From: Natronomonas aquatica
Lineage (GTDB): Archaea; Halobacteriota; Halobacteria; Halobacteriales; Haloarculaceae
DNA: 35,777 bases
Direction of reading: 5' to 3'
Assembly (NCBI RefSeq): GCF_024449025.1
Contig: NZ_JAHLKM010000025.1
Location: 1-35,777 of the forward strand
Position 1 is the first letter of the stretch, and each line of letters opens with the position of its first letter. Under the pieces are notes generated by a model. It did not search any database, was not told where the DNA came from, and worked only from the letters and a program-made list of their open reading frames with translations. Positions 5,801 through 18,646 of the stretch are shown one piece after another. The position numbers and the translations under genes are program-made.

Positions 5801-6334
5801 GTGACGCCGGAGGGTCGATCGGAGGCGAAGATAAGACATCGAGAGGGCGTCGCTCACGGCGACGGTGTGGGCGATCTGAGCGAATCGAGTTTCCACGTCG
5901 CGATGGTCGCACTCGGCGAGCGGTATCTCGAGGAGACGTTCCTCGAGGATCCCAACTCGTCGGTCGTCGAGGTGAGTCCCTATCACGAGACTGAGGAGGG
6001 CCGGTTGGACCTGGCGGGGCTCGACGCCGATGGGGAGGTTGTCGTCGCGCTTGAAGCCGAACGCTCGAACCATGACACAAGAGAGGCGGTTCCGGAGGAT
6101 TTCGACAAGATGGCCGCACAGGAACCTGAAGCGGCGATCTGGATCGTCAACAACCGCGACGCGGCACACGACGTTCTAGAGGCATTGAACGAGCCACTGG
6201 ATGGGGATCCCCGCGTCGAGAAAACGTATAGTCGGAGTTCGCCGCCCCAGCGGCTCAGCATCGATACATCAGGGTTGACCGAGATCTACACGTTCACATA
6301 CCTCCGGGATTCTGTTCTTGGGGGAATCCGGTAG
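2888..6334 (+). CDS. VirB4/TraD-like DNA-transfer ATPase with Zn-ribbon and nuclease-like C-terminus
   Basis: A protein of 1148 residues of the HerA/FtsK superfamily, of the type found on haloarchaeal plasmids and integrated elements and thought to pump DNA or protein in conjugation. About 370 N-terminal residues precede Walker A (GKTGSGKS, near residue 380), which is followed by ILIDPKGDGMPIEYL as in TraD/TraG coupling proteins. Walker B is LVNLYLEEA near 641-649, and the later LLSQSRSFGLSMTLAMQFPGQL matches the sensor region of this family. After a Ser/Thr/Pro-rich linker there is a Cys-rich segment (CCSSCESRY...CCHEL, about 851-878), a winged-helix-like part (about 900-990) and a last domain with GRLDLAGLDADGEVVVALEAE, which resembles a PD-(D/E)xK nuclease core with ExE in place of ExK. 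No other conjugation genes are in view. The start follows a gap of about 70 bases after the small ORF. Confidence 0.8.
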   Translation: MSTTTPQSSSLDSYLKVSLDTAQLDPATLESAFTRLHSIGFETRIEIRIVATANTVAYYFGTTDRQFRTLDRTLSRIFPEGTELEHETPPELPENPSAALEFRGRGDRREDWQTRLRPVYDGHPERVEYPLAAVVDTIAETDASVVYQAILTPKQNWRADAKTRTLQLKQGEDTPSQRFFNFLFDTYEYDATIEDASPSATARIHSIEDTQPEQSFSVYARAIATGEDAPAVLSAVGSAFRPIEGRFYGIDTTVRRDDDRVDEITDRLEHAAVHEEPSLTSRLTARLPITGNFDHEIVTDPLTAPNFCLFDGASVSSDGRRALEATPQEQTNVPRPDESVLTQYDSGMLLGYPLTSDGQTADSAVSLPPSLQPLHAAWFGKTGSGKSTALINAMLDNHAATDGADILIDPKGDGMPIEYLRAHYEEYGSLDDVYYFDCTETLPATSFFDIREQLADGVDRTTAVEDVTDHYIEMLVGIMGEERFEQAVRSPDIIRYLVKALFDPVHGDDAYTHRTLQEATTRMRETRDAPPVTDPDLQQMLSGVVSNSKRSFDELLQGVANRIEKVPLDDRLGRLFNHVPGEDDPQFDFREVIDEDAAVIFDTGGLRPESRRAISLVLLSQLWSALRRRAEGGDETAEPPLVNLYLEEAAEIARSGLVSELLSQSRSFGLSMTLAMQFPGQLRQADNEAYAEVLNNVSTVVSGNVAVDPDLKKRLATEDMPPEEVANRLRALERGQWFVSLPSAFGTAEPRPFRVESAPIPAGHPDHETSLSAAKQTAFEAAFDVVRDRSRLEHGIDLAPTQRPTATPEATNGDEPTGEPSSDSSAPVGSLLPHTKRLPEMLEYDGDRHALCCSSCESRYDPTREGIERAIECCHELASVDRDDIPVCGVNLKLSRDERIQSRCTDAQLRFLHAVYAAHQRRFDPELEYDLLTDSMIQLREYVGIEKPAVDELLDDGLLRKDCQYPHVLYTVTPEGRSEAKIRHREGVAHGDGVGDLSESSFHVAMVALGERYLEETFLEDPNSSVVEVSPYHETEEGRLDLAGLDADGEVVVALEAERSNHDTREAVPEDFDKMAAQEPEAAIWIVNNRDAAHDVLEALNEPLDGDPRVEKTYSRSSPPQRLSIDTSGLTEIYTFTYLRDSVLGGIR

Positions 6335-6388
6335 GCGAAGTGGTAAGCAGAACTGAATAAGGGGCCTTCTCAGCGTTGACGACCGATA

Positions 6389-6574
6389 GATCGGTACTTC
6401 TGGTGTTTCGTCGGGACGTTCATACGGAACAAGATCTACAATCAGGCTTGGGACGAGCGGTACGCCGTCACGCTCGGGGCGGCGCTCTAGTTTTACATCT
6501 TGGTATCGGCTGTGACCTCCGTCCATAACGGCCGCGATCAGCTACCGGAAGTATCGGATTTAATGGGGGACTAG
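6389..6574 (+). pseudogene. Possible decayed gene fragment with internal stop
   Basis: One frame reads DRYFWCFVGTFIRNKIYNQ, continues to TLGAAL, meets an in-frame TAG, then continues FYILVSAVTSVHNG to PEVSDLMGD and a second TAG. The aromatic, hydrophobic text looks coding and could be the end of a membrane protein, but I recognise no family. The single internal stop and lack of a start suggest a relic. Confidence 0.3.
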
Positions 6575-6802
6575 AGTTAGTCCCGCAGGTAGCGAGTCAG
6601 CTGAATGACGTCCGACCCGCTCGAATGATTCATGTTTGGTCTGTTATGTTATCGGCGCTGACTGTCGATGGAGCCCGTCCCAACCTGCCGCTTATCTTGG
6701 TTCCGGCTGAACGCTCGTTCGTGTTAACGAGTCAGTGCTTGAGTGACGACCCACCGAGGCCAGCCAACACTGTTCGAATCGATCGGCCGGTTCCCACTCT
6801 GA

Positions 6803-6895
6803 GATGAGTGTACACCTCGAAAATACACCTCGTCTTGAGCATGGTTCGGTGGTTTCAACCTGTTTACTCCGGTGTAACGGCAGTGTACACTCATC
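6803..6895. repeat. 13-bp inverted repeat GATGAGTGTACAC
   Basis: GATGAGTGTACAC at 6803-6815 recurs exactly, inverted, as GTGTACACTCATC at 6883-6895, with 67 bases between the arms. The second arm extended (6878-6895, read on the minus strand) matches 15 of 17 bases at 7334-7350 (ATGGGTGTAAACTGCCG). Weaker relatives occur at 7368-7380 and 7394-7410. The pattern suggests protein-binding iterons. Confidence 0.6.
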
Positions 6896-7228
6896 GAAAT
6901 CTCCGCAGTAATGCACCGTGATCAGATCCCCGGACGGTCTCGTGGGTAGTTTCGATCGAACAGCCCCCTGCTGATCGAACCGGATGGAGTAGATGGGCAG
7001 TTTTAGCGTCTTTACTCCTGACATTCGGATTCGAACGCGGAATGATATTGTTGAAACGAGGGCCGAAATTCGAACTTTTGAAACTCCGATTTGACGGATA
7101 CACCCCACCAACGCGGGGATGTACCGGCATCTGAGCGATCTCGAAAACCTGCTTCGAGCCGACGAAACACGCTTCGATAATCGACTGTCTAAATCGCCCG
7201 AATTCTGGCGGTTTTTTGCCTCTTTCGG

Positions 7229-7256
7229 CGTTCCAGTTGAAACGAATGGGGGTGTT
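7229..7256 (+). promoter_or_regulatory. ORB-like origin recognition box
   Basis: The sequence has TTCCAGTTGAAAC (7231-7243) followed after CGAAT-type spacing by a run of five G (7248-7252). This is the layout of haloarchaeal origin recognition boxes bound by Orc1/Cdc6: a TTCCA-GTGGAAAC-like dyad followed by a halophile-specific G string. Only one strong copy is present, whereas active origins normally have several in inverted arrangement. The consensus used here is recalled, not computed. Confidence 0.45.
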
Positions 7257-7467
7257 TTGGCGGGCTACGACCGGGTGAATCCGGTATGTCGTCGATCAGC
7301 CACCGCGAAACAGGCCACACTGCGGAGAATAGTATGGGTGTAAACTGCCGATAAACCCATTTTCATTCTGTGTACACGGCTGATTTGTGTTTTGAGTGGG
7401 TGTACGATCTGAAATGACCTCGACTTTTAATACATGCTCAAATACGAGAAATTAATAATAGATATCA

Positions 7468-7660
7468 GAGTCACTTCCCTCTAAATCTGACCTGCTACCG
7501 GCGCTGATGATCCGCGATTAGCGGCTCTATTGATGGGCTAAAGACAGTAACAGAAGAATGATAAATAGCTAATTGATCTCCGGTGAGGGACTTCACCTTG
7601 ACAACGAATTCGGAGACTTAGAGTGACTTTGAGACGGTGGTTGATCTCGCTTTTCGTAGA
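7468..7660 (+). pseudogene. Decayed duplicate of the PrimPol 5' end
   Basis: This stretch aligns with the first 60 to 65 codons of the intact gene downstream. From 7468 it matches 7729 onward without gaps at an offset of 261 bases: GAGTCACTTCC is identical, and PSKSDLLPALMIRD answers PTESDLPAALTTRD, then two in-frame stops. From 7598 it matches 7861 onward at an offset of 263, where LTTNSET-stop-SDFET answers STTDSATWSDFET. Substitutions, stops and a net 2-base shift show it no longer codes. It is either an old tandem duplication or the remains of a related element's gene. Confidence 0.8.
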
Positions 7661-7684
7661 GTCGTACGCGTTAATCCACCCGAT

Positions 7685-7692
7685 CATTTATT
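7685..7692 (+). promoter_or_regulatory. TATA-like element of the PrimPol gene
   Basis: ATTTATTT lies about 30 bases before the start codon at 7723, the spacing expected for a leaderless or nearly leaderless transcript. Confidence 0.4.
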
Positions 7693-7722
7693 TCGGAGAA
7701 CGGGACCAGAGTACACTACTTG

Positions 7723-8928
7723 ATGTCCGAGTCACTTCCCACTGAATCCGATCTGCCGGCGGCGTTGACGACCCGCGATCAATGGCTCTGTTGGCGAGCC
7801 GAAGAGCGGGATGGAAAAATAACAAAAGTGCCGGTCGATCCCAACTCTGGAAGCTTCGCGTCGACGACGGATTCGGCGACCTGGAGCGACTTCGAGACAG
7901 CAACTGATCGGGCTCGAAACAGGTCTGCCGACGGCATTGGATTCGTCTTTACTGATGAGGACCCGATTGTCGGCGTTAATCTCGATGACTGCCGGATCCC
8001 CGAAACCGGGAAGACTCGTGAGTGGGCGACAGATATCATCGATCGGCTTGAGTCATTCACTGAAATCAGCCCCTCGGGAACCGGCTATCACGTCCTCGTC
8101 GATGGTTCACTTCCGGATGATCGAAACCGGAAGGGCGATATCGAATGCTACGAGACGGCTCGCTTTTTTACCGTCACCGGCGACCACGTCGATGGCACAC
8201 CGATGACCGTCGAATCGCGAACGGAGGCACTCGAAGCCGTTCACAGCGAGTATCTGCGTGAAGACGACTCCGAGGCGTCGACAGAGGGAAGCAACGGCGA
8301 GAAGACCACGATCGGCCGGACAGAGACTGACGCAACGCCGGGCTCGTCACTCTCCGATCAGGACCTCATCAAACGGGCGAAAAACGCCGCCAACGGTGAG
8401 AAGTTCGCCCGCCTGTGGCGAGGGAGTACAGCCGGCTACGAGAGCCACTCAGAGGCAGACATGGCGCTGTGTGCATTGCTGGCGTTCTGGACGGGCGGTG
8501 ACGCTGCCCAGATGGATCGGCTGTTCCGTGATTCTGGGCTGTGTCGTGAGAAGTGGGACGAACGGCACTTCGCGGACGGCAGCACCTACGGCGAGAAGAC
8601 GATCGAACGGGCAATCGCCGGGACTGACGAGTTCTACGAACCGACAGAGGCGTCAGAGAGGGATGCACCGAGCAACCAGACAGCCAATACGGACGTCGGA
8701 ACTGCCCCCCCGACAGCGACGTCTCTCCGGGCGGCACAACGGCGTGAGGCTGATCATCTACGCCGAATCGAAGAACTCGAATCGAAACTTCAGAATGCGA
8801 TCGATGAAATCGACCAGCTGGAAACGGAACTTGAGGCCGAGCGCGAGCGACGTCGTGAACTGAAAGCGGAATTCGATAGCAAGCATAATACCGATTCCTC
8901 CGAAGAGCGATCGTGGCTCCCGTGGTGA
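7723..8928 (+). CDS. PrimPol-like replication protein (NrS-1 polymerase-like N-domain)
   Basis: A protein of about 401 residues resembling the primase-polymerase family of archaeal and viral mobile elements. The N-terminal half carries the ordered motifs: WLCWRAEERDGKITKVPVDP, then GIGFVFTDEDPIVGVNLDDCR (motif I region), SPSGTGYHVLVDG (motif II) and ARFFTVTGDHV (motif III). In homologues I remember, motif I reads DLDDC; here residue 86 is Asn, so one metal-binding Asp seems replaced. Residues 200 to 310 form the helical region typical after the catalytic domain (DMALCALLAFWTGGDAAQMDRLFRDSGLCREKWDERH). A coiled coil (about 340-390, heptads of Leu and Glu) leads to the end SWLPW. No helicase domain is fused, so unwinding would need a partner. 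It lies beside the repeat region, which suits replication of the element. An IS630 element is inserted one base after the stop codon. Confidence 0.75.
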   Translation: MSESLPTESDLPAALTTRDQWLCWRAEERDGKITKVPVDPNSGSFASTTDSATWSDFETATDRARNRSADGIGFVFTDEDPIVGVNLDDCRIPETGKTREWATDIIDRLESFTEISPSGTGYHVLVDGSLPDDRNRKGDIECYETARFFTVTGDHVDGTPMTVESRTEALEAVHSEYLREDDSEASTEGSNGEKTTIGRTETDATPGSSLSDQDLIKRAKNAANGEKFARLWRGSTAGYESHSEADMALCALLAFWTGGDAAQMDRLFRDSGLCREKWDERHFADGSTYGEKTIERAIAGTDEFYEPTEASERDAPSNQTANTDVGTAPPTATSLRAAQRREADHLRRIEELESKLQNAIDEIDQLETELEAERERRRELKAEFDSKHNTDSSEERSWLPW

Positions 8929-8931
8929 TAC

Positions 8932-9449
8932 TCACGGACATAGATACGCGGATAGTTGTGGAGGCTCGAGATTGTCGAGTGCTGAGAGAGCAGCATCCTG
9001 CAGCTTGTCAAGATTCTCAAACAGTCGATTACCGAGAGCTTGATTGAGCTTTCTCCAGCACTCTTCCGTGGGGTTCAGCTCCGGTGAACCCCGCGGAAGG
9101 TAACACAGTTCGATTGGTGTGTCTTCAACGAACTCCTGCACTGCGTTGGCTGTGAAATACGACGCGTTATCCAGGACAACACAGATTTTCTCGCCGAATT
9201 CAGTCTGGAGAGCATCTAGCAATCGAATTGTGGTGTCGCTGTTGAAGTTCTCCTCACAGGGCAGAAAGAACGTTTCACCAGCATCACTCACCGCACCAAG
9301 CAATTTGATACTGTCCCACTTGCCCGTCACTGACAGTGACGGGCGCTCTCCCTCTGGAAACCACGCATAAATTAGCGTCGAGAGAACCTGACGCGTTTGA
9401 TCTATGGTCAGGACTGTGTATTCGTCGTCCAAATTGTTGCGCTTTTTTT
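8932..9449 (-). CDS. IS630 transposase, catalytic part (orfB frame)
   Basis: This frame encodes the DDE catalytic domain. The expected acidic residues are visible: Asp in VLTIDQTRQV, Asp in VVLDNASYFTANA, and Glu in SPELNPTEECWRKLNQAL. It ends at YLCP with its stop codon just inside the left inverted repeat. It has no credible start of its own; the text becomes transposase-like only after the seven-A run at 9443-9449 (minus strand), where it joins the upstream orfA frame by a -1 shift, giving EGFKKKRNNLDDEYTV. A frameshifted fusion product is therefore the likely enzyme. Confidence 0.75.
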
Positions 9450-9953
9450 GAACCCTTCCTGCCAGGCTTCCTGCGCACGCTCGTCGGACTTGTAGTACTC
9501 CGGCCGGGCTGTCTTCCAAGACAGACCGGCCTCGGACATCAGCCGGCGGACATGACGCTCGCAGTATTCGACGTTGAATTCTTCACGAAGGTAGTAGCGT
9601 GCAAGTGGCACAGACCACGCGGGCGCGTCGATTCCACTTTCTTCGGGTGGATTATGCAGGGCTTCAATGAACTGCTCGTGCTCTTGCTCTGTGAGTTCAG
9701 GTGATTTTCCGTCGCGTGGTTCGCCGTAGACAACTTCCTCGAACGGCTCTTCGTCGAGCCGTTCGAGTCGCTGGAACCATTTCGAGGCCCAACTGCTCGA
9801 AAACCCGTACAGCTCTGCCGCGCCTTTCTGACTCAGCTCATCGATCTCCTTGAACGTGATTGCTGCCATCAGTCGCTTTACTGCGTCTCCATCGTCCACT
9901 TTCGACAATGTTTCTCGGAGATCATCAGCAGAGACGTTTTCCAAGTTCGCCAT
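9408..9953 (-). CDS. IS630 transposase, DNA-binding part (orfA)
   Basis: The N-terminal part of the transposase, about 181 residues. It begins MANLENVSADDLRETL and contains a helix-turn-helix (KGAAELYGFSSSWASKWFQRLERL) and a second HTH-like region (LAEYYLRE-type helix followed by CERHVRRLMSEAGLSWKTARPEYYKSD), as is usual for IS630 transposases that bind their inverted repeats. The frame continues about a dozen codons past the A-run and stops after TNTQS. The DDE domain is in the -1 frame beyond 9443-9449. Either ribosomal or transcriptional slippage at the homopolymer makes a full protein, or the element carries an inactivating frameshift. Confidence 0.75.
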   Translation of the reverse strand: MANLENVSADDLRETLSKVDDGDAVKRLMAAITFKEIDELSQKGAAELYGFSSSWASKWFQRLERLDEEPFEEVVYGEPRDGKSPELTEQEHEQFIEALHNPPEESGIDAPAWSVPLARYYLREEFNVEYCERHVRRLMSEAGLSWKTARPEYYKSDERAQEAWQEGFKKSATIWTTNTQS

Positions 9954-10073
9954 ACAGAGACAAGTGGCTCAAGATACACGTATCTTTAGCCGTCAGTATG
10001 AATATACGCCCTGCATTTAGCACGCTGTTGAGCCCTATCCTATCCTGAAACAGAATACACCATAGCTCTGAAG

Positions 10074-10100
10074 CCGTACTGTCTGTACGGCGTTTTATAT
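10074..10100 (+). promoter_or_regulatory. Promoter with dyad: CCGTAC-tgtct-GTACGG and TATA box
   Basis: A 6-bp perfect dyad (10074-10079 and 10085-10090) directly abuts TTTTATAT (10093-10100). Transcription would start near 10122, four bases before the lipoprotein ATG, giving a leaderless message. The dyad covers the BRE position and could be an operator. Confidence 0.55.
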
Positions 10101-10125
10101 AGGAGACCGGGAGGAGTACCCGTGA

Positions 10126-11139
10126 ATGTTCGAAGAGCACTATACGCGACGACGTGTACTGCGTCGGGTCGGAACAGCAAGTCTGGCAACGGTACCTACC
10201 TTATCGGGCTGTCTCGGTTCGGGTGAGTCGGATACCTCCGAAACGCCTGCTTCGACGACAGACACCACGTCCGAATCACAGACGAGCGATCCAGACTCGG
10301 CAAGTGATCCAAACCCGGATGCGTGGACTGAATACGCGGCGAAACCGTACGCACAGTTCTCGCCACATCCGGACGAGATCGGGAGTTCGATGAATCATTT
10401 CACCTGTACCTTACCAGCCGTTGCCCTCCAGCACAGCGCGGCATTCGGCGACGCAGAAGGCCGATTTGCTGCGAATTGGATCGAAACTCCTCCCGGTGCC
10501 TCACCAGAGTCGACACATTTCAATATCTGGACGAACTCGACACGCTGTATCGGCGGTGCGTTCGACAAAGAGCCGGTAGTCGATCGTTTTGAGTCGTTCT
10601 CCTTCGAGAAGCTTGACCCATACAAGGAATTTGAACTGTATGCCGGCTCAACGAGCGGAATCTCTCTCCAAGTAACTGCCGTGCGAAACGGGTGGCTGTT
10701 AATAACGTTCCCGTCAGATATGCCGGAAGGGAAACAAAAGGTTCGGCACCTCATCGATCTGTGTCTCGAGGATACGACCCCGTACTACCGATCTACTGAA
10801 CCCTTCACGGATTTGGTCGAATATCTTCCACAGGGTGTTTTCACCCGCGTGTATCCGAACGTTTCCGAACTTAATCCACGGCTTCCCAGAAAGCAGATCG
10901 AAATAGCGGGAGAAGCGCTGTTGTTTGACGGCCAGTACGAACCCGCAATGGGCGTTATTGTTCTCGGATTTCGAGACGATATCGACGATCCGAGGCGTGT
11001 CATCGAAGAGTCGTCCGAGCACATGACGTCATTCACGCGTCTTTCCCTCCGAGACCACGAAACTGAGATTAGGGCGCCGTCCAACCGAATCCTCATACTG
11101 GAAGGGCCTGCCGATCCCGAAGCGGTATTCAGTGCCTGA
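10126..11139 (+). CDS. Tat-exported lipoprotein, function unknown
   Basis: A protein of 337 residues with the Tat motif TRRRVLRR, a short hydrophobic region and the lipobox TLSGC near residue 29, followed by a Ser/Thr/Asp-rich tether to about residue 65. The mature part has no repeat or enzymatic signature that I recognise. It is acidic, contains WTEYAAKPYAQFSPHPDEIGSSMNHF near its start and probably folds as an alpha/beta domain. It would sit on the outer face of the membrane. It follows the IS element and reads toward the winged-helix gene. Its strong TATA-type promoter suggests expression. Confidence 0.75.
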   Translation: MFEEHYTRRRVLRRVGTASLATVPTLSGCLGSGESDTSETPASTTDTTSESQTSDPDSASDPNPDAWTEYAAKPYAQFSPHPDEIGSSMNHFTCTLPAVALQHSAAFGDAEGRFAANWIETPPGASPESTHFNIWTNSTRCIGGAFDKEPVVDRFESFSFEKLDPYKEFELYAGSTSGISLQVTAVRNGWLLITFPSDMPEGKQKVRHLIDLCLEDTTPYYRSTEPFTDLVEYLPQGVFTRVYPNVSELNPRLPRKQIEIAGEALLFDGQYEPAMGVIVLGFRDDIDDPRRVIEESSEHMTSFTRLSLRDHETEIRAPSNRILILEGPADPEAVFSA

Positions 11140-11315
11140 TAGGGATCAAAACGAACGCGGATCTTAACGAGAGAATTCAGCTACAAAACAATAGAGACAA
11201 TCCTGTGTGCCGAACGCTATGCCCTCTTGACCTGAGATTTCAGAAACCACCCAACTAATATACAACAATAGATTAGAAGCTCGGTAGAACCCCTGCTGTC
11301 TGATAAATCATATAG

Positions 11316-11573
11316 TCAGATCTCTCGTGGGTCCGCAACGAATCGGTATAGTCCTCGATTGACTTTTTCAACCCATCCTGCATCAACCAAGCCGTTTAGC
11401 GCTCGGTTGATGTATTGCCGCCGGATGCCGAGTTCCTCCTCAAGCCGTTTCGGATTCGCGTATCCCCATGGCTGTTCTTCCTCTCTATTCTCCTTGAGCA
11501 CATCAAGGATGGCCTCTTGGCGCTCGTTTGGTTCGAAGTTCTCGTTGACCATCTTACTGGTGAGTATGCTCAT
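11316..11573 (-). CDS. Small winged-helix DNA-binding protein
   Basis: An 85-residue protein, almost entirely one winged-helix domain: helix 1 NERQEAILDVLKENRE, helix-turn-helix PKRLEEELGIRRQYINRALNGLVDAGWV, wing EKVNRGLYRFV. Such regulators are common in haloarchaeal mobile regions. It is transcribed away from the RAMP operon, from a shared intergenic region of about 100 bases before the structured RNA begins, so regulating that operon is a reasonable guess. The start could be MSILTSK (11573) or the internal Met of MVNENFEPNE (11552). Confidence 0.7.
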   Translation of the reverse strand: MSILTSKMVNENFEPNERQEAILDVLKENREEEQPWGYANPKRLEEELGIRRQYINRALNGLVDAGWVEKVNRGLYRFVADPREI

Positions 11574-11682
11574 GTTCCACTTACAGTTTCGGGAGAACTA
11601 TCAAAGTAAATCACGTTTAATGTTCTATTTAATGTTACAAAGTAACTATTAAGTGAACAGAGGATATAGGTGAGAGTGAGAA

Positions 11683-11800
11683 GTGCGGGCTGCCTCAAAG
11701 GTGAGGCCGGTGCTGGAGACACCGACCCCGCGCTTCGGTACCTGACCGAAGCATGAAGAAATCACACTGCGCCGGACTTGAAGACTCCGGCACGACGCAC
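11683..11800 (+). ncRNA. Structured RNA or leader upstream of the RAMP operon
   Basis: Within 120 bases there are four clear hairpins. GCCTCA/TGAGGC pairs 11692-11697 with 11702-11707 around AAGG. CGGTG/CACCG pairs 11708-11712 with 11720-11724 around a 7-base loop CTGGAGA. GCTTCGGT/ACCGAAGC pairs 11732-11739 with 11745-11752, a perfect 8-bp stem. GCCGGA/TCCGGC pairs 11771-11776 with 11786-11791. The 5' end GTGCGGG (11683-11689) can close the first two hairpins by pairing with CCCGCGC (11727-11733), or its GTGCG can close the whole structure with CGCAC (11796-11800). The outline recalls a tRNA with a long variable arm, but the T-loop consensus is missing, so it is not a normal tRNA. AT-rich promoter-like sequence lies at 11615-11655. 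No poly-T end follows, so it may be part of the operon mRNA. An overlapping 30-codon frame (11753-11845) is an alternative explanation for part of it. Confidence 0.6.
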
Positions 11801-11822
11801 GTAGAGTCCTCAAATCAACAAC

Positions 11823-11828
11823 GGAGGG
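11823..11828 (+). promoter_or_regulatory. Shine-Dalgarno site of the Cas7-like gene
   Basis: GGAGGG lies six bases before the ATG at 11835. A strong ribosome binding site after a leader of about 150 bases is unusual in a group where leaderless mRNAs dominate, and it decides this start. Confidence 0.7.
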
Positions 11829-11834
11829 CGGACA

Positions 11835-12701
11835 ATGCAGACTGACGAGATCGGATCCGATCTCTACGTCAGATTGCAAACCGACCTGCTGGTCATCGGC
11901 GACTCGATTATGACCGATAGACACCATGCCAGCAACGGCAACTACCAGGCGGACGACCCCCAGAACCAGATCGGCGGGATCATTCCTGCTTTCTCGCTTT
12001 CCGGCTGGCTCCGACACGGGATGGAAGCCGTCGTTCAGCAGTACGGCGGGACGGCCTGCCACCCTGGCGAGGCGAACGCGAACTTCATGCGAAGTGACGT
12101 CTACGAGCGTGATCTTGACGATGGATATCACAAGAAGGGTGCGTGCATCGACGATCCCGAAGACGACGCGGGCTGTGTGATTTTTGATCTTTTCGGCGGG
12201 TTTGGTGATATACCCGGAAAGATGATGCGTCGTCCAATCCAGTTCTCGCCGGTCCGCTCGAACGTGGACTACACCCGCGGGCAGGCCGAAGGGCACTACC
12301 GCCAGCTTAGTCGTAACGTCGTGAGCCGCAACGACGAGGATCATCGGAAACCACTTCGGAACGCCGAAATCGATGCTGTAGCGAACCTCGACGGAACGTG
12401 GCATCTCTCACTTCGAGAGATGAAACCGGCGTTCGTCGGGCTTCTCATTGAGGCCCTCGACTTTTTCGACGCTCACAAGACTGACTTCATGCACCAACTC
12501 GGCGGTGCGCGGAACTTCGGTGCTGGAATCGTCGAGTGTGCGCTCATCAATCCACTTTATGAGGAACGCGAACTGAAGCGCGTCTTCAACCGCGGAAAGG
12601 GCAATACGAACGCGATGGACGAGAAGGACGAGCAGTGGGCAGCTGAGTTTCAACCAGCCTTCGTCGACGCGCTCACGGAACGTATTTCAGAGGGGCCATA
12701 G
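11835..12701 (+). CDS. Cas7-like RAMP protein of a derived class 1 (HRAMP-like) system
   Basis: A protein of 288 residues with the hallmarks of a Cas7/RAMP backbone subunit. The first strand (LYVRLQTDLLVIGDSI) leads to a loop and the sequence IIPAFSLSGWLRHGMEAVV (about 48-66), equivalent to the IPGSSLKGxLR helix of Csm3, Csf2 and related Cas7 proteins. A Cys/His-bearing insertion follows (CHPGEAN, GACIDDPEDDAGC, about 74-115), and GGARNFGAGIVECAL (about 221-236) matches the glycine-rich loop at the end of the RRM-like fold. In known systems Cas7 subunits polymerise along guide RNA. Type III and IV relatives come to mind, but the gene company (two further RAMP-operon genes, no large subunit, no cas1/2, no array) fits the haloarchaeal HRAMP locus best. 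The structured RNA lies directly upstream. The next gene starts one base after the stop. Confidence 0.65.
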   Translation: MQTDEIGSDLYVRLQTDLLVIGDSIMTDRHHASNGNYQADDPQNQIGGIIPAFSLSGWLRHGMEAVVQQYGGTACHPGEANANFMRSDVYERDLDDGYHKKGACIDDPEDDAGCVIFDLFGGFGDIPGKMMRRPIQFSPVRSNVDYTRGQAEGHYRQLSRNVVSRNDEDHRKPLRNAEIDAVANLDGTWHLSLREMKPAFVGLLIEALDFFDAHKTDFMHQLGGARNFGAGIVECALINPLYEERELKRVFNRGKGNTNAMDEKDEQWAAEFQPAFVDALTERISEGP

Positions 12702-12702
12702 C

Positions 12703-13485
12703 ATGGCAGAGAATGCAACACTCAGTGACTTTGAGGACGACGGCAGCCAAAACGTGATGGTCACGGCTTACCGTCACGATGCCCACAAACTCAACGGAGA
12801 ATCTCACAGGAATGCACCAGAAACCCTCGACGGTGTGTCTGTCAACCAGACCGTGCCGCTCGGCGCAGACGCCGATGCATCGGCCTTGAGCAGGCCGTCT
12901 GGCGACCCCAAAAAAACAGTCGATAATCACGAGACGCACTATCGGCTCTCGCTGTTGACCGGTGAGAGTACCTACGATCCAGACGTGTTCGCTCGTTCGG
13001 TACTTTCTGAGGCTATCAGCGGTCTGCTAATCGGCTCGGATCCCCATGCGATGCATCGAACCTGGCTTGCCTCCGATGTGGCCAGCGGCTTCAACGAGAG
13101 CGTCTACCATCCGTATACGAGTCTGAAGTACCACACGCTCCTTGTGGCGGCACTGCTTGACAACTACCGCGATGGACACGCCTTCGAGGATCTGTTGTTG
13201 ATCGTCGATTCTCCACGCGAAATCGAGACGTTACGGACTATCTATACCGGGGACCGGTTCTCATTACGGATCGATACGGAAGCTGATGGCAATCCGTGGG
13301 CCCGCCTCGGGAGCCGACCGTGGCGATCGTGGGCATCTACATGGACGCGACTGACAGCTCACCCGCTGGACACTGCCCACAACGAGTACGATCGGATACT
13401 GGATGCGAACCTCCGACGAATCTGGAGTTGGTCAACAGCACTCCAGTACATCGAGGATTTCGAACAGTGGGGGATGTCGCCGTGA
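12703..13485 (+). CDS. Second protein of the RAMP operon, function unknown
   Basis: A protein of 260 residues between the two RAMP genes, with one base between it and the Cas7-like gene and a 4-base overlap with the next. It opens with a disordered acidic stretch and a strand-like MVTAYRHDAHKLNGESHRNAPETLDG. The middle has DPDVFARSVLSEAISGLLIGSDPHAMHRTWLASDV, and the C-terminal third is rich in Trp (PWRSWASTWTRL, RIWSWSTALQYIEDFEQW). I see no glycine-rich RAMP loop and no catalytic motif. Its position suits the uncharacterised conserved third component reported for HRAMP, perhaps acting as a small-subunit or adaptor. That role is inference. Confidence 0.6.
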   Translation: MAENATLSDFEDDGSQNVMVTAYRHDAHKLNGESHRNAPETLDGVSVNQTVPLGADADASALSRPSGDPKKTVDNHETHYRLSLLTGESTYDPDVFARSVLSEAISGLLIGSDPHAMHRTWLASDVASGFNESVYHPYTSLKYHTLLVAALLDNYRDGHAFEDLLLIVDSPREIETLRTIYTGDRFSLRIDTEADGNPWARLGSRPWRSWASTWTRLTAHPLDTAHNEYDRILDANLRRIWSWSTALQYIEDFEQWGMSP

Positions 13486-14390
13486 CGCGAATCCAGCAAC
13501 TACTCTGGGAGTTGGAGATGGATTACATCGGCCATCCCTACTACGTAAGCGGGAACGCGATCTTCCATGCACTCGCCGCTGAACTCGACTACGAGGTCAG
13601 TCGGCACCTGCACGCCAGCCACGGTATTTTCGTCCCCGGCGAGTACGGCACCTATCCCGACGAGCACTCTCAGGGTGGGATGAAACCCTACATGGGAACA
13701 TCACTATCAGATGTCGAAGCATACGACGACCTGTTCCTGTTTCGCCATCCCGATCAGCCGTGGCTGTTGGATAGTCGGGCACGCGACGCCCGCAACACAC
13801 ACGACATCCGTGTTCAACACCGGAACCCAGCATTGGCCCATGAGATGGTCATGGGCCAGCTCGATGACGCCCCCACAAACCGTCAGACATCGACATGGTA
13901 TCTCCACGCCTACGTGCATGCTGATGACCCGAATGTGCTCCCGCTTGACGAGGCTGCAGTTGATGGCCTCCAGTTCGGCGGCCGACGAAACTACGGCTAC
14001 GGATTGACTCGGTTACGGGACACACAAGTCATTGATCTGGAGAACTTGGATTACTCACGATTGGACGATGCCGACGAGTATCTTATTGAACTCGTGTCAC
14101 CGTTCGTGTTGACAAGCGAATATCCAAGGGCCGACGAGGATACTGTTCCGTGGTGGTGGCGTGTTGATCACGATGATGGGCTACGACGTCGTGTCGAGAA
14201 AATCGTCAAACAGCGAGATGCGTATCGTCTCGAGACGATCGACCACGGACAGGTAGTCGGATATGCTGGCGAGACGCCAATCAAGACAGCAAAAAAGGGC
14301 ATTCTTCGTGTCGGTACCCATCGAAAGTATGGATTCGGAGAGTTCCGCGTAAAACCACTCTCTTCCGCAGAACCACACCACGGGAGCTAG
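13482..14390 (+). CDS. Cas5-like (or Cas6-like) RAMP protein
   Basis: About 302 residues from a GTG start whose GTGA overlaps the previous stop, an arrangement that signals translational coupling. The next in-frame Met is at 13518 (MDYIGHPYYVSG). Longer frames upstream overlap the previous gene by almost 190 bases and are unlikely. Two glycine-rich loops of RAMP type are visible: LQFGGRRNYGYGLTRL (about 163-178) and VGTHRKYGFGEFRVKP (about 277-292), implying two RRM-like domains as in Cas5-type proteins of type III systems or in Cas6. An N-terminal HPYYVSGNAIFHALAAEL helix follows the first strand. A catalytic Cas6-type His cannot be assigned. In a Cas5 role it would cap the 5' end of a guide RNA on the Cas7 filament. 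Confidence 0.6.
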   Translation: MTRIQQLLWELEMDYIGHPYYVSGNAIFHALAAELDYEVSRHLHASHGIFVPGEYGTYPDEHSQGGMKPYMGTSLSDVEAYDDLFLFRHPDQPWLLDSRARDARNTHDIRVQHRNPALAHEMVMGQLDDAPTNRQTSTWYLHAYVHADDPNVLPLDEAAVDGLQFGGRRNYGYGLTRLRDTQVIDLENLDYSRLDDADEYLIELVSPFVLTSEYPRADEDTVPWWWRVDHDDGLRRRVEKIVKQRDAYRLETIDHGQVVGYAGETPIKTAKKGILRVGTHRKYGFGEFRVKPLSSAEPHHGS

Positions 14391-14393
14391 TCG

Positions 14394-14522
14394 ATGATGT
14401 CAGAACTGACGACCCGGTACTGCCAAAATGGTACGAACTACCAGGTTCAGCGGATGAATGCCGCGTTAGAGTCTGGCCCTTCGCGACTGTGTCAAGCTCA
14501 TCGAGTTCACAAATATATCTAA
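14394..14522 (+). pseudogene. Truncated fourth ORF of the RAMP operon
   Basis: Three bases after the previous stop a frame opens with MMSELTTRYCQNGTNYQVQRMN and runs 42 residues to VHKYI. Its stop overlaps the minus-strand stop codon of the methyltransferase gene, precisely where base composition switches to GC-rich chromosome. This looks like the 5' end of a longer operon gene cut by the recombination that set the island boundary. The missing part could be the nuclease expected in such loci. It is too short to identify. Confidence 0.45.
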
Positions 14523-15259
14523 ACCTTCCCGTCCCAGTCGATCCAGTTTTGCTCCCAGCCCTTCCGGCGCTCGGCGGCCCGGCGGGCGTGTTCGCGGTCC
14601 TCCCGTCGGGTCCGGTTCCGCTCGACGGTGTCGGCCTGCTCGCCCTCGACGAGCATCGGGTGGAAGGCGACGGTCCCGTACTCGGCGACCCGCTCGCCGC
14701 CCTCGATGGCGACGAGCTCCTGTCCGCCGCCGCCGAGCGGCATGACGAGCCGGCCTCCCGCGGCCAGCTGTTCGAGGAGCGCCCGCGGCGGCTCGACGGC
14801 CGCCGCCTCCAGTAGAATCCGGTCGTATGGGGCGTACTCGGCCAGCCCGCGGGCGCCGTCCCGGCGGTCGACGAGGACGCCCGGATACCCAGCGGTCGAG
14901 AGGTTCGAGCGGGCCTCATAGACCAGTCGCCGAGTGATGTCGATCGCGTGGACGTTGGCTTCCTCGGTGAGTTCCGCCAGTACCGCCGCGGTGTAGCCGA
15001 CGCCCGCCCCGACGACGAGAACGGTATCGTCGGGCTCGGGCGCGAGCGCCTCGAGCAGCCGGCCGGCCGCGCTCGGCGAGAGCACGCGGGTGCCCAGCCG
15101 CTCGAACGATCGGTCGGCGTAGGCGACGGACTCGTCTTCGACGAACGGCTCTCGCGGTACCGACCGCATCGCCGCGCTGACCTGCTCTGAGCTGACGACG
15201 GCCTTGGCCTCGTGTTCGAGGCTGTCGACCATGTCGTCGCGAAGCACCGCGGGGTCCAT
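14519..15259 (-). CDS. pimT2: Protein-L-isoaspartate O-methyltransferase-like protein, divergent paralogue
   Basis: About 246 residues of the PCMT family, SAM-dependent enzymes that start repair of isoaspartyl damage in proteins. The SAM-binding motif I is VLVVGAGVGYTAAVLAEL, with later family blocks VHAIDITRRLVYEARSNL and LLEQLAAGGRLVMPLGG. The usual PxGxxQTISxP substrate-site motif is altered here to LGTRVLSPSAAGRLLEAL, whereas its paralogue at 19308-20012 keeps it, so the activity may differ. The C-terminus has a charged tail ending WIDWDGKV. The start at 15259 (MDPAVLRDDMVDS) follows the family; upstream codons in the same frame are Arg-rich and unlikely. In other haloarchaea two such genes are normally neighbours. 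Here they are about 4 kb apart. It is the first chromosomal gene beyond the island. Confidence 0.8.
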   Translation of the reverse strand: MDPAVLRDDMVDSLEHEAKAVVSSEQVSAAMRSVPREPFVEDESVAYADRSFERLGTRVLSPSAAGRLLEALAPEPDDTVLVVGAGVGYTAAVLAELTEEANVHAIDITRRLVYEARSNLSTAGYPGVLVDRRDGARGLAEYAPYDRILLEAAAVEPPRALLEQLAAGGRLVMPLGGGGQELVAIEGGERVAEYGTVAFHPMLVEGEQADTVERNRTRREDREHARRAAERRKGWEQNWIDWDGKV

Positions 15260-15538
15260 ATTTCCGACTCCGTGCCGGAGCCTATTCAATCGAGCGCAAA
15301 GAGAGCGTAGTTCTCGTGTGGGTCGTTTAGCTCCGTTTCTGTGTCCGGATTCGATCGTGTCTGTCGCTATTGTATCTGCCCTGTCGAGTAGCAACCTCTA
15401 AGCAACGGTAAGGCGACACTGATTTTGAAACCACACGGCTCGACCGCTGATGAACCGACTTACATTCGGCTTGCATACTAAGTCGCCGCTATTCAACGGA
15501 GCATCAAAAAGAGGATAGAAGGGATAGACTGCTACGGT
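15260..15538. other. Intergenic stretch, no gene seen
   Basis: The GC content falls sharply around 15400. No gene, RNA or clear terminator is visible. It marks the left edge of the insert between the two methyltransferase genes. Confidence 0.4.
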
Positions 15539-16279
15539 TCACTGAACCCCTATCTGCTTTTGTGATTCGGACTCGGTCTTCGGAAGGGTGATTTCGACTA
15601 CTCCGTTGTCCCAGCTTGCGGACGCGTCGTCCACGTTACACTCAGCGGGCAATTGAATCTGTCTTTGCATGACTTTTCCACGCTCAGACATAACTGGGGC
15701 CCCCTGCTGGTCTTCTTCGTGGCTGCTGATACGCTCAGCAGACAGCGAAATAGTGCTATCATTCGCTCGAACGTCGATCGAGTCACTGTCCACTCCGGGC
15801 AAATCGGCCAAAATCAACACCTCATTGGGACGTTCTATCACGTCAACCGCCGGAGAGTATTGCTGCTGTGATAGCGTCCGTGCCTGCTGCTGTTCGAACG
15901 CAGAGAGTTGTGGTGATGTCGCCTGTTGACTGAACGACGGGGACGCCTGTTGGCTCTGTGCTTGAGACGTTTGCTGTTGTGGTTGTAGTTGCTCGGCTTG
16001 CTGTGTTTGCGCTGGCTGAGCCTGTTGACCAGCTTGTTGCTGTGCCTGTACTCGGCCGGCCTGTCGTGATTGGGCCTGTTGAGCCTGTTGTGCCTGTGTT
16101 TCCGTCAGGGGCTGGCCTGAGAGTGCAGCTTGGTACCCTGATTGGGTAACGCCTATTGATTCCACAGCCGCCTTCGCTGCCTGTGCAGCGATATTCGACA
16201 CGAGAGCCGTCAGTTCCTCTTGACTCTGCGAAGCGACTCCTTCGTTGCGGGCCGTTGAAGTCGTGCCATACTCTAACAT
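15539..16279 (-). CDS. Hsp20/alpha-crystallin protein with Gln-rich N-terminal region
   Basis: About 246 residues. The C-terminal 90 are an alpha-crystallin domain: PAVDVIERPNEVLILADLPGVDSDSIDVRANDSTISLSAER, then QLPAECNVDDASASWDNGVVEITLPKTES, as in small heat-shock chaperones that hold unfolded proteins. Residues of about 12-55 are Ala/Ser-rich and helical. Residues 55-150 are extraordinarily rich in Gln and Ala (runs such as QAQQAQQAQ, QQAGQQAQPAQTQQ), a low-complexity, prion-like linker unusual in haloarchaea, whose proteins favour Asp and Glu. I chose the Met at 16279 (MLEYGTTST). The 13 upstream codons (MIIHSIVIQRLVA) look non-coding. It is the first gene of the insert and reads alone. 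Confidence 0.8.
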   Translation of the reverse strand: MLEYGTTSTARNEGVASQSQEELTALVSNIAAQAAKAAVESIGVTQSGYQAALSGQPLTETQAQQAQQAQSRQAGRVQAQQQAGQQAQPAQTQQAEQLQPQQQTSQAQSQQASPSFSQQATSPQLSAFEQQQARTLSQQQYSPAVDVIERPNEVLILADLPGVDSDSIDVRANDSTISLSAERISSHEEDQQGAPVMSERGKVMQRQIQLPAECNVDDASASWDNGVVEITLPKTESESQKQIGVQ

Positions 16280-16553
16280 GGCAACTAGTCGTTGGATTAC
16301 TATTGAATGAATTATCACCCTCGTGTGCCAACCGAATTAAGTCAACTGCCCCGCGAAAAAGCGGTGCTCGCGTCCGCAGACAGAATTTGCGTATGCGTAT
16401 GTTGTAGAGTATGGGATTAGCGTATGGTGCACTGAGTACGAGATTGCTGCACTGGATGTCGGGTATCTCGTCCACTACCGCTGGGCAAAACCAATTACAA
16501 CCGCGAACAACGCACCCATTCGAGCGAAGTGCTATACGCAGCGGTAGCTGTTA

Positions 16554-16683
16554 GAAACGACGTACAAGACTGTCAAGCGAACGCAGGACCGCCCTGCGTT
16601 CGCGATTCTGGTACCGCCAGTTCCGTGAGATCGTTCTTCTGTTCGCTCTCGGCAATCTCAATAAACTCACCAAAACGCTATGA
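16554..16683 (+). pseudogene. C-terminal remnant of a haloarchaeal IS transposase (IS5/IS4-like)
   Basis: ETTYKTVKRTQ in one frame is followed, after a frameshift near 16587, by ALRSRFWYRQFREIVLLFALGNLNKL. This answers the usual end of haloarchaeal ISH transposases, which read roughly ...VKRTLG..VRARTWYREFREIVL...YNIK. The remainder of the element is not recognisable. A relic here shows that the interval between the methyltransferase genes has received mobile DNA. Confidence 0.6.
16577..16603. repeat. Perfect 11-bp palindrome
   Basis: GCGAACGCAGG (16577-16587) and CCTGCGTTCGC (16593-16603) are exact inverses with a 5-base loop. It lies at the frameshift of the transposase remnant, so it may be the scar of a palindromic duplication and not a functional site. 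Confidence 0.5.
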
Positions 16684-16771
16684 TCCGACTCACCTCCTGC
16701 ATTTTCAATAGAGCACTCAGCAGCTGAGTAGAGCAGAAAGATCTATTTTCAATCTCTGTGTGTCGCCCCGG

Positions 16772-16975
16772 ATGGTTATGTTTGATATCTCACGCCGACG
16801 GTTCGTGACACTGACAGGTGGCACCGTTCTCGTCGCTCTAGCTGGGTGTTCTGGCCTCGGAGATAGCGACGACGACGATTCGATAGACGGTGGTTCGATG
16901 GATGATGGGTCGATGGACGATAGGTCGATGGACGATAGGTCGATGGACAACGAAACGATGGACGATGATGGATAA
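16772..16975 (+). CDS. Short Tat lipoprotein with GSMDD tandem repeats
   Basis: A 67-residue protein: MVMFDISRRRFVTLTGG is a Tat signal, ALAGC the lipobox, and the mature part only about 40 residues long, nearly all Gly, Ser, Met and Asp. Five 15-base units (16892-16966) encode GSMDD-type repeats with drift. The Met-Asp repeats could bind metal ions such as copper or calcium, or act as an acidic surface tether; this is speculation. A TATA-like CTATTTTC at about 16743 sits right for a leaderless start at 16772. It lies just upstream of the molybdoenzyme gene on the same strand. Confidence 0.65.
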   Translation: MVMFDISRRRFVTLTGGTVLVALAGCSGLGDSDDDDSIDGGSMDDGSMDDRSMDDRSMDNETMDDDG

Positions 16976-17132
16976 TAACCAATATCTGACAGGAAACGAT
17001 TCGGCCGATATCCACAACGTTCGCCGATGGCGGGTGTATCTATCGGCCGTATCCGACAGCGCATTCCTCCGAGAGCAGACGACTGAAATCACCGAACTGG
17101 GACGAAATCTAGACGGAATTCGCAAAACATCC

Positions 17133-17140
17133 TTTAAATA
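17133..17140 (+). promoter_or_regulatory. TATA box of the molybdoenzyme gene
   Basis: TTTAAATA lies about 25 bases before the ATG at 17159, favouring that codon as a leaderless start over the one at 17150. Confidence 0.5.
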
Positions 17141-17158
17141 TCGGACCGGATGACGAGT

Positions 17159-18646
17159 ATGAACAAGTACCTCCGGGATCTGGAATCCCTTTCGTTCAGC
17201 GACCTCCTGTTCGCCGTCCTCGCTGGAGTCACGGGCGTCGCGGGATCGTACGCTGCCGCGGGGTACACCCCACGGTTCATCGTCGCTCCGATAGACGCCA
17301 CAGTCGTCCGCCTGACGCCCGGAAGCGTCGTCACCTTCGTGATTCAGAACGTCGGTGAAGCGGGGCATCTCCTGCACATCGCGCTCTCGTTTGTCGTCGC
17401 GATCGGATTGCTCGCGTTGACAGCGATTCTAGGACTTTACATCGGTCAGCGATTCGACCGCCCGGTGGTCGGTATCGGTCTGGCGGGCGTCCTCGCGTGG
17501 GGCCTTACCAGTTCGATTACGGCACAGCCATCACTCGCGGTGGGTACTGCTGTCCCCGTCACGCTGTGGACTGCTATCGGATCTACGTCGCTTTTCTCCC
17601 CTGCCCACGATCCGTCCCGCCGCCGGGTGCTCGCCTCGAGCGCAGGCGCCCTCGCATTCATCGGTGCGTCTTTTGGCTTCGGGCAGTTGTTGCGGGACAC
17701 CGAAACCGACAACAGCGGTACAGCGGAAATGGACGATGAAGTCGCCACGCTCATGCAGGACGCCGAGGCGAAGTCACTCGGTATCGAGGGTGACATTCCA
17801 GGCCTCGTGAGTTCGTTTGAGGAGTTCTACAACGTCGACATCGCGGAGTTCGATCCGGAACTGTCCCCCGAGGACTGGTCGCTGACGATCACCGGGGAAG
17901 TCGGGGCGGACGTTACGGTCACGTTCGATGAACTGACCGACATGCCGACCGAGCGTCGTTTCGTAACCCTCCGGTGTGTCGGCGAGGATCTCAACGGACA
18001 GAAACTGGACACCGCCGTTTGGACGGGGACGCCGATCAAGCCGCTGCTCGAGGAAGCTGATCCCGGGGGCGAGTGTGGCTGTGCGATGCTTCGGGCAGCG
18101 GACGATTACTTTGTCCAGTTCCCGATCGAAGCACTCGAGGATGGCTTCCTTGCCTGGGGGATGAACGGTCAGTCACTCCCACAGTCTCACGGCCATCCCG
18201 TTCGCGTATTGATCCCCGGTCACTGGGGCGAGACGAACGTCAAGTGGCTCTCCGAGATCGAGTTACTCGACGAGGAGATGGATGGGTACTGGGAACAGCG
18301 CGGGTGGCACGGAACCGGCCCGGTGAACACCGTGGCCAAACTCTGGAGTACCACCACACTCGAAGACGGAAGCGTCGAGATAGCCGGCCACGCCTACGCC
18401 GGGACACGTGGCGTCGAACGCGTCGAGGTTTCGATCGACGGCGGCGAAACCTGGCGGAACGCGGAGCTATCGGAGCCGCTACCCGGGGACGATGTGTGGC
18501 GACAGTGGCGCTACGAGTTCGAACCTGACGGGAGCCATGACGTCGTCGTGCGGGCGACCGACGGAACAGGAACCGTCCAGCCGGAAGACCGGTCGGACTC
18601 GTTCCCGAGCGGGGCCACCGGCTGGGTACGAAAGACGGTCAACTGA
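17159..18646 (+). CDS. Membrane-anchored molybdopterin oxidoreductase, sulfite oxidase family
   Basis: About 495 residues. The first 170 carry four or so hydrophobic segments (around LLFAVLAGVTGVAGSYAAAGY, LLHIALSFVVAIGLLALTAILGLYIG, VGIGLAGVLAWGLTSSI, and after SRRR, VLASSAGALAFIGASFGFGQLL). The rest is a sulfite-oxidase-type domain: WSLTITGEVGADVTVTFDELTDMP, the cofactor Cys in LRCVGEDLNG (about residue 271), and HGHPVRVLIPGHWGETNVKWLSEIEL. A C-terminal Ig-like dimerisation domain contains AGTRGVERVEVSIDGGETW. The enzyme probably faces outside and oxidises or reduces a small sulfur or nitrogen oxyanion; the substrate cannot be read from sequence. A regulator and a small membrane protein follow in the same direction. 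Confidence 0.85.
   Translation: MNKYLRDLESLSFSDLLFAVLAGVTGVAGSYAAAGYTPRFIVAPIDATVVRLTPGSVVTFVIQNVGEAGHLLHIALSFVVAIGLLALTAILGLYIGQRFDRPVVGIGLAGVLAWGLTSSITAQPSLAVGTAVPVTLWTAIGSTSLFSPAHDPSRRRVLASSAGALAFIGASFGFGQLLRDTETDNSGTAEMDDEVATLMQDAEAKSLGIEGDIPGLVSSFEEFYNVDIAEFDPELSPEDWSLTITGEVGADVTVTFDELTDMPTERRFVTLRCVGEDLNGQKLDTAVWTGTPIKPLLEEADPGGECGCAMLRAADDYFVQFPIEALEDGFLAWGMNGQSLPQSHGHPVRVLIPGHWGETNVKWLSEIELLDEEMDGYWEQRGWHGTGPVNTVAKLWSTTTLEDGSVEIAGHAYAGTRGVERVEVSIDGGETWRNAELSEPLPGDDVWRQWRYEFEPDGSHDVVVRATDGTGTVQPEDRSDSFPSGATGWVRKTVN

Follow-up and report, generated by a model that had tools for sequence, protein, structure and literature searches.

What is the RNA in front of the Cas7-like gene of this haloarchaeal locus? 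The window analysed here, a 35,777-nt stretch of DNA from Natronomonas aquatica (contig NZ_JAHLKM010000025.1), holds an HRAMP-like operon, and the original prediction, made from the letters alone, placed a multi-hairpin RNA (11683-11834) directly before its Cas7-like gene, as a possible guide or scaffold, autoregulatory protein-binding site or decoy. What two sources say of HRAMP in their relevant parts is that it is an array-less CRISPR derivative, with no RNA partner named there (PMC8730458, PMC12669027), and the system goes unmentioned in a study that screened CRISPR operons for structured RNAs (PMC9067536). The element is undescribed in the open-licence papers that we searched, and Rfam 15 returned no match at the gathering score for the window copy and five relatives, one of which (L059) also gave none at E up to 1. 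We argue that the feature is probably one copy of a class-wide, cis-acting haloarchaeal leader RNA that controls the translation start of whichever gene is attached to it.

A three-way junction and a hairpin that ends at the start codon

The stems of the original prediction are all present in the window: one of 8 bp (11732-11739/11745-11752), two of 6 bp (11692-11697/11702-11707 and 11771-11776/11786-11791), one of 5 bp (11708-11712/11720-11724) and the closing helix, P1, which extends to up to 10 bp and whose outer half competes with the 8-bp hairpin (Table 1). Across 11680-11791 they compose a three-way junction (P1/P2/P3), a second hairpin whose 5′ arm is common to the 3′ strand of P1 and which ends exactly at the AUG at 11753, and then P4. 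The start of the feature should be moved from 11683 to about 11680, and its 3′ part, up to 11834, is the remainder of a 30-codon ORF (11753-11845). By thermodynamics alone, the window fold is only moderately unusual: compared with shuffled sequences, folding energy gave z = -2.24 for 11683-11834, z = -3.46 for 11675-11755 and z = -2.67 for 11677-11800, where 12 of 1000 shuffles were as good. We therefore judge the structure real on the conservation and covariation found in its relatives, and not on folding energy.

Table 1. Features of the element and its surroundings in the window
Feature	Position	Strand	Basis or remark
Divergent small winged-HTH gene, 85 aa	11316..11573	-	Translation; Pfam MarR_2/TrmB matches
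TATA-like box TATTAA, predicted leader promoter	11647..11652	+	Sequence; ~30 nt before P1
P1 5′ strand GAAGTGCGGG	11680..11689	+	Sequence, folding; 93% of P1 cells paired in B-type alignment A7
P2 hairpin GCCTCA/TGAGGC	11692..11707	+	Sequence, folding; P2 covaries in alignment A5
P3 hairpin CGGTG-CTGGAGA-CACCG	11708..11724	+	Tip GUG(CUGGAGA)CAC typical of the family
P1 3′ strand CCCGCGCTTC	11727..11736	+	Outer half shared with anti-P1 hairpin
Anti-P1 hairpin GCTTCGGT-ACCTG-ACCGAAGC	11732..11752	+	Excludes outer P1; abuts AUG
30-codon tag ORF MKKSHCAGLEDSGTTHVESSNQQRRADNAD	11753..11845	+	Start codon presented by the element
P4 hairpin GCCGGA-CTTGAAGAC-TCCGGC	11771..11791	+	Within coding region, 18 nt past the A of AUG
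HRAMP Cas7-like (RAMP superfamily) gene under the element	11835..12701	+	Homology

Cas7-like and Cas5-like RAMP proteins, with weak Csm3/RAMP and Cmr3-like matches, mark the operon as an HRAMP locus, and no CRISPR repeat array was found in window 8900-17200. The tag ORF overlaps the cas7-like start by 11 nt, and the two are likely to be translationally coupled. Upstream of the HRAMP genes (window 2888-9519) lie genes for a TraD/TrwB-like coupling protein, a protein with an NrS-1 polymerase-type domain and a DDE transposase fragment, which suggests an integrated plasmid or similar element; a 15-bp tandem repeat, GACGATxGGTCGATG, occurs in about 5 units at 16871-16945.

Leaderless mRNAs are considered the rule in haloarchaea. 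The original prediction had nevertheless put the hairpins in a long leader, and their position relative to the predicted promoter agrees with this. Over 119 copies, AT content peaks at -31 to -28 from the start of the element (0.84 against ~0.55), and an archaeal TATA box usually lies that far ahead of the transcription start, at 28-31 nt. This would place the transcription start at P1 and give a leader of ~75 nt up to the AUG; the TATTAA of the window fits such a leadered transcript, and the element thus occupies what looks like a genuine leader. A divergent winged-HTH gene is the usual upstream partner: by eye, a small HTH-like divergent gene lies ~50-140 nt upstream of 26 of 31 HRAMP copies versus 21 of 42 others, counts that include a second family of small proteins without Pfam match. 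This second family (DDQYRGxLTEREREI..., for example at L052, L037, L032 and L150) takes the same position as the winged-HTH proteins, and the one member tested had no Pfam match.

The element heads most HRAMP operons

Homologues of the Cas7-like protein are present in 36 of 146 genomes of the family and were gathered in 27 named loci. The sequence immediately upstream of these genes looked unrelated at first, since the element usually sits at the first gene of the operon instead, up to 1.6 kb ahead of cas7. Several leaders have the hairpin tip GTG-CTGGAGA-CAC in common and, after it, a short hairpin that stops at an ATG, and in most of them folding returned the three-way junction as the lowest-energy structure. 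A second HRAMP locus in the genome of the window (contig C25) also carries the element, as GGAAGCCCAGCC ... GGCTGGGTTC ... GAACCC-ATG.

A covariance model derived from six HRAMP leaders other than that of the window (R1) scored 40-96 bits on most HRAMP operon leaders and 23.3 bits (E 0.0028) on the window copy, which belongs to a separate B-type sequence (P1 GAAGCGCGG/CCGCGCTTC, pre-AUG CGAAGC). A model trained mainly on A-type copies (R2) did not raise the window score (20.8 bits). The B-type model (R3), whose training set includes the window, gave 55-79 bits on HRAMP loci outside that set (L033, L034, L050, L019). Together, R1 or R3 place the element in 20 of the 24 HRAMP loci with enough upstream sequence, and one further locus (L041), its 5′ half masked by N, is clearly B-type by eye in the remainder; the RNA proposed for the window is hence a conserved structured RNA typical of HRAMP operons. 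In L042, L043 and L045, the sequence before cas7 yielded no element. Two plasmid loci, L326 (Halobacterium salinarum pHSAL2) and L327 (Natrinema pNATPE01), have HRAMP genes annotated only as hypothetical proteins, and at L326 the annotated first gene begins two codons after the AUG of the element. In H. salinarum 91-R6, the HRAMP genes of pHSAL2 run from HBSAL_RS12655 onward.

The original prediction made a structured RNA hinge on compensatory changes in related loci, and these are abundant. In an alignment of 68 copies (A5), standard pairs account for 94.0% of helix cells, and two-sided changes occur at 22 of 24 pairs, in 235 cells versus 68.5 in shuffles; A5 was fitted to the R1 structure and is biased in its favour, while most of the changes lie in sequences unseen by R1, a model that stems from six. 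Sliding the partner strand by 1-3 columns lowers pairing to 29-44%. P3 is paired in 99.7% of A5 cells, with two-sided changes in 4 of its 5 pairs. Among nine B-type copies, 92.4% of cells pair, as opposed to 32-51% when slid. Complementarity between the loops of P3, P2 and P4, as expected for kissing contacts, equalled that of shuffles.

Copies beyond HRAMP

Is the element particular to HRAMP? R1 finds it in 85 of the 146 family genomes. These include 30 of the 36 with a Cas7-like match, and 55 of the 85 have no detected Cas7-like homologue. Across the class, 227 of 391 genomes contain it according to R2, as do 70 of 86 genera. When the whole phylum was sampled, ten genomes were positive, all from the same order, and none of ~124 sampled genomes outside that order was positive at E 0.001; base composition may differ there, and we take this absence as a specificity control rather than as proof. 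The downstream genes encode SWIM zinc-finger proteins, HRAMP components and many unknowns, and copies outside HRAMP keep the same placement relative to promoter and AUG.

The window genome holds weak-scoring extra copies before non-HRAMP genes (C24:5931, C31:29055 and C64:4076; L174, L173 and L175), each with a hairpin ending at ATG. The C24 copy precedes a SWIM-like gene, and the proteins downstream of the C31 and C64 copies are related to each other. Elsewhere (L165, L166, L167, L168), 3-4 copies stand in tandem arrays, each before its own SWIM-like or other gene, and the proteins behind them share an N-terminal tag (MTTNELSGQE...). Pattern searches were of less use: a search of the window genome for the P3 tip with mismatches returned background only, the matches listed from a scan of viral contigs were scattered and look like chance, and a generic scan for hairpins at ATG was too loose.

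A competing helix before the AUG

The outer half of the P1 3′ strand complements the bases that immediately precede the AUG, and this holds for quite different sequences (GGGTTC/GAACCC, GGTTGTC/GACAACC, TGGTCTTC/GAAGACCA, GCTTCG/CGAAGC). In 56 of 68 copies, the resulting anti-P1 helix stops precisely where the AUG begins. Strands from one and the same copy match better than strands combined across copies, with a mean run of 5.54 against 4.78 when shuffled (maximum of 1000 shuffles, 5.13), and 82.9% of anti-P1 is paired versus 24-59% when slid. Two-sided changes affect 4 of 6 pairs (20 cells), with fewer independent ones than in P1-P3, and a simple rule finds no anti-P1 hairpin in 15 of 126 copies; a fixed, non-switching leader is thus possible. 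The energies of the P1 and anti-P1 folds differ by a median of 2.1 kcal/mol, 76% of copies lie within 5, and the window copy favours anti-P1 by 3.8 kcal/mol, all under standard parameters that do not strictly apply in the molar KCl of the cell interior. Such near-equal modelled energies fit a switch.

P4 and the N-terminal tag

A hairpin of the P4 type, centred on codons 9-10 in a single register, is present in 21% of 112 element genes versus 0.7% of 453 control ORF starts. Its stems vary by compensatory changes (GCCGGA/TCCGGC, GGCGGA/TCCGCC, GTCCGAC/GTCGGAC, GGGCTAT/GTAGCCC, GCGAACT/AGTTCGC), while the second position of codon 10 is 97% A. Behind the same leader and tag stand 23 protein families with unrelated bodies and a shared N-terminal peptide, roughly M-x-x-[SNK]-x-x-x-G-[LQ]-[QE]-x-[ST]; the P4 RNA constraint accounts in part for the similarity of their N-termini. 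In the window, the tag is a separate 30-codon ORF whose N-terminus matches first-gene tags of other HRAMP loci (MSMKTSAGLQDSGTEAES), whereas at L017 it is borne by the Cas7-like protein itself. A conserved reading frame at 11753-11845 had been named as grounds against an RNA: the frame is conserved in part, but largely because of the RNA hairpin inside it.

A candidate start-codon switch and its alternatives

How might such an element work? Judging by the TATA position, transcription would start at or just before P1, such that the element makes up the entire 5′ leader, with P1 closing the three-way junction and P2 and P3 as its arms. The outer half of the P1 3′ strand could then migrate to its partner immediately before the AUG, giving two competing folds: in one, a single-stranded stretch would precede the AUG, and in the other, a helix would be stacked against it. 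We infer that initiation is reduced in the anti-P1 fold and increased when P1 forms, and that a ligand, a protein or the ionic state may shift the balance. P4, ~18 nt past the AUG and at the edge of the initiating ribosome, would help to seat the ribosome at the AUG, in a clade where seating is independent of Shine-Dalgarno pairing. In the window, the element would drive the tag ORF, probably coupled to the cas7-like gene, and in this way set expression of the HRAMP operon. There is, in our estimate, an even chance that this constitutes a natural, class-wide start-codon RNA switch, in which a module of leader and coding-region hairpin on many genes gives a similar N-terminal tag to more than 20 unrelated protein families and places HRAMP under a common signal.

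The best-surviving alternative, albeit an unlikely one, is a constitutive translation-start element, in which leader and P4 present the AUG in a clade that makes no use of Shine-Dalgarno sequences, and nothing is switched. The fixed hairpin-AUG-hairpin geometry would suit it, as would the finding that leadered haloarchaeal mRNAs initiate without Shine-Dalgarno pairing (PMC3986360), but a static element has no need of a conserved competitor of P1 at the AUG or of near-equal fold energies. Less probable still is a processing or stability element, cut at the boundary between hairpin and AUG, so that the mRNA becomes leaderless and a distinct small RNA of ~75 nt is released. That the helices end so precisely at the AUG, and that haloarchaea translate leaderless mRNAs efficiently (PMC8241225), agrees with such a cut; no cleavage motif was found, however, and P4 is conserved downstream of the would-be site.

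The idea from which this analysis set out, an RNA dedicated to the HRAMP Cas7/Cas5-like proteins as guide, scaffold, decoy or autoregulatory site, now appears improbable. The array-less nature ascribed to HRAMP and ARAMP (PMC12669027) and the presence of the element at the head of most HRAMP operons speak for it. Yet the same architecture precedes SWIM zinc-finger and other unrelated genes, is found in the 55 family genomes mentioned above, ends at an AUG and includes codons; it is neither confined to genomes with effector genes nor organised as repeats and spacers, as a crRNA-like RNA would be. Least probable is a DNA-level site (for recombination, a cassette site or an operator) that folds by accident, as a module shuffled before many different genes beside divergent HTH genes might suggest: the A5 helices tolerate sense-strand G-U over A-C by 132:29, an excess which argues for selection on the coding-strand RNA, and spacing to TATA and AUG is fixed.

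Relation to known regulatory RNAs

The leader reading that we prefer invites comparison with translational riboswitches, which likewise have a compact junction fold, conserved loops and a P1 helix of which one strand also belongs to an alternative helix where translation begins. As in a riboswitch, a conserved structured leader lies upstream of the gene it would control, its transcription deduced from the TATA position, and the helix corresponding to the aptamer shares a strand with that of the expression platform, with weaker support for this P1/anti-P1 pairing than for P1-P3. Unlike translational riboswitches, the element has no identified Shine-Dalgarno sequence, carries a conserved hairpin in the coding region, has no Rfam match and is seen only in haloarchaea. 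Because the functionally unrelated genes downstream have no single metabolite or function in common, we do not claim membership of the riboswitches and regard the element as a candidate cis-regulatory leader RNA whose architecture at the start codon and in the coding region is unusual.

As of 2021, the only natural riboswitch determined by experiment in archaea was the fluoride riboswitch of Thermococcus kodakarensis (PMC8241225). It is likewise a leader RNA of archaea with a presumed effect on translation; its hosts differ, and no Rfam family matches the window or its relatives at the gathering score. Synthetic theophylline riboswitches in Haloferax volcanii demonstrate that haloarchaeal translation can be regulated by a structure that masks the AUG region, although these are engineered and also mask a Shine-Dalgarno sequence (PMC8241225). 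According to a transcriptome study, structured leaders do not typically control translation in haloarchaea (PMC4983044). As to HRAMP itself, most operons like that of the window carry the leader, which is nonetheless not restricted to them.

What emerges is a large family of covarying leaders, absent from Rfam, in more than half of the sampled haloarchaeal genomes and on CRISPR-derived as well as zinc-finger genes. Its architecture suggests regulated access to the start codon without Shine-Dalgarno pairing. The element may thereby help to show how such leaders function, when HRAMP is turned on and how RNA structure shapes the N-termini of proteins.
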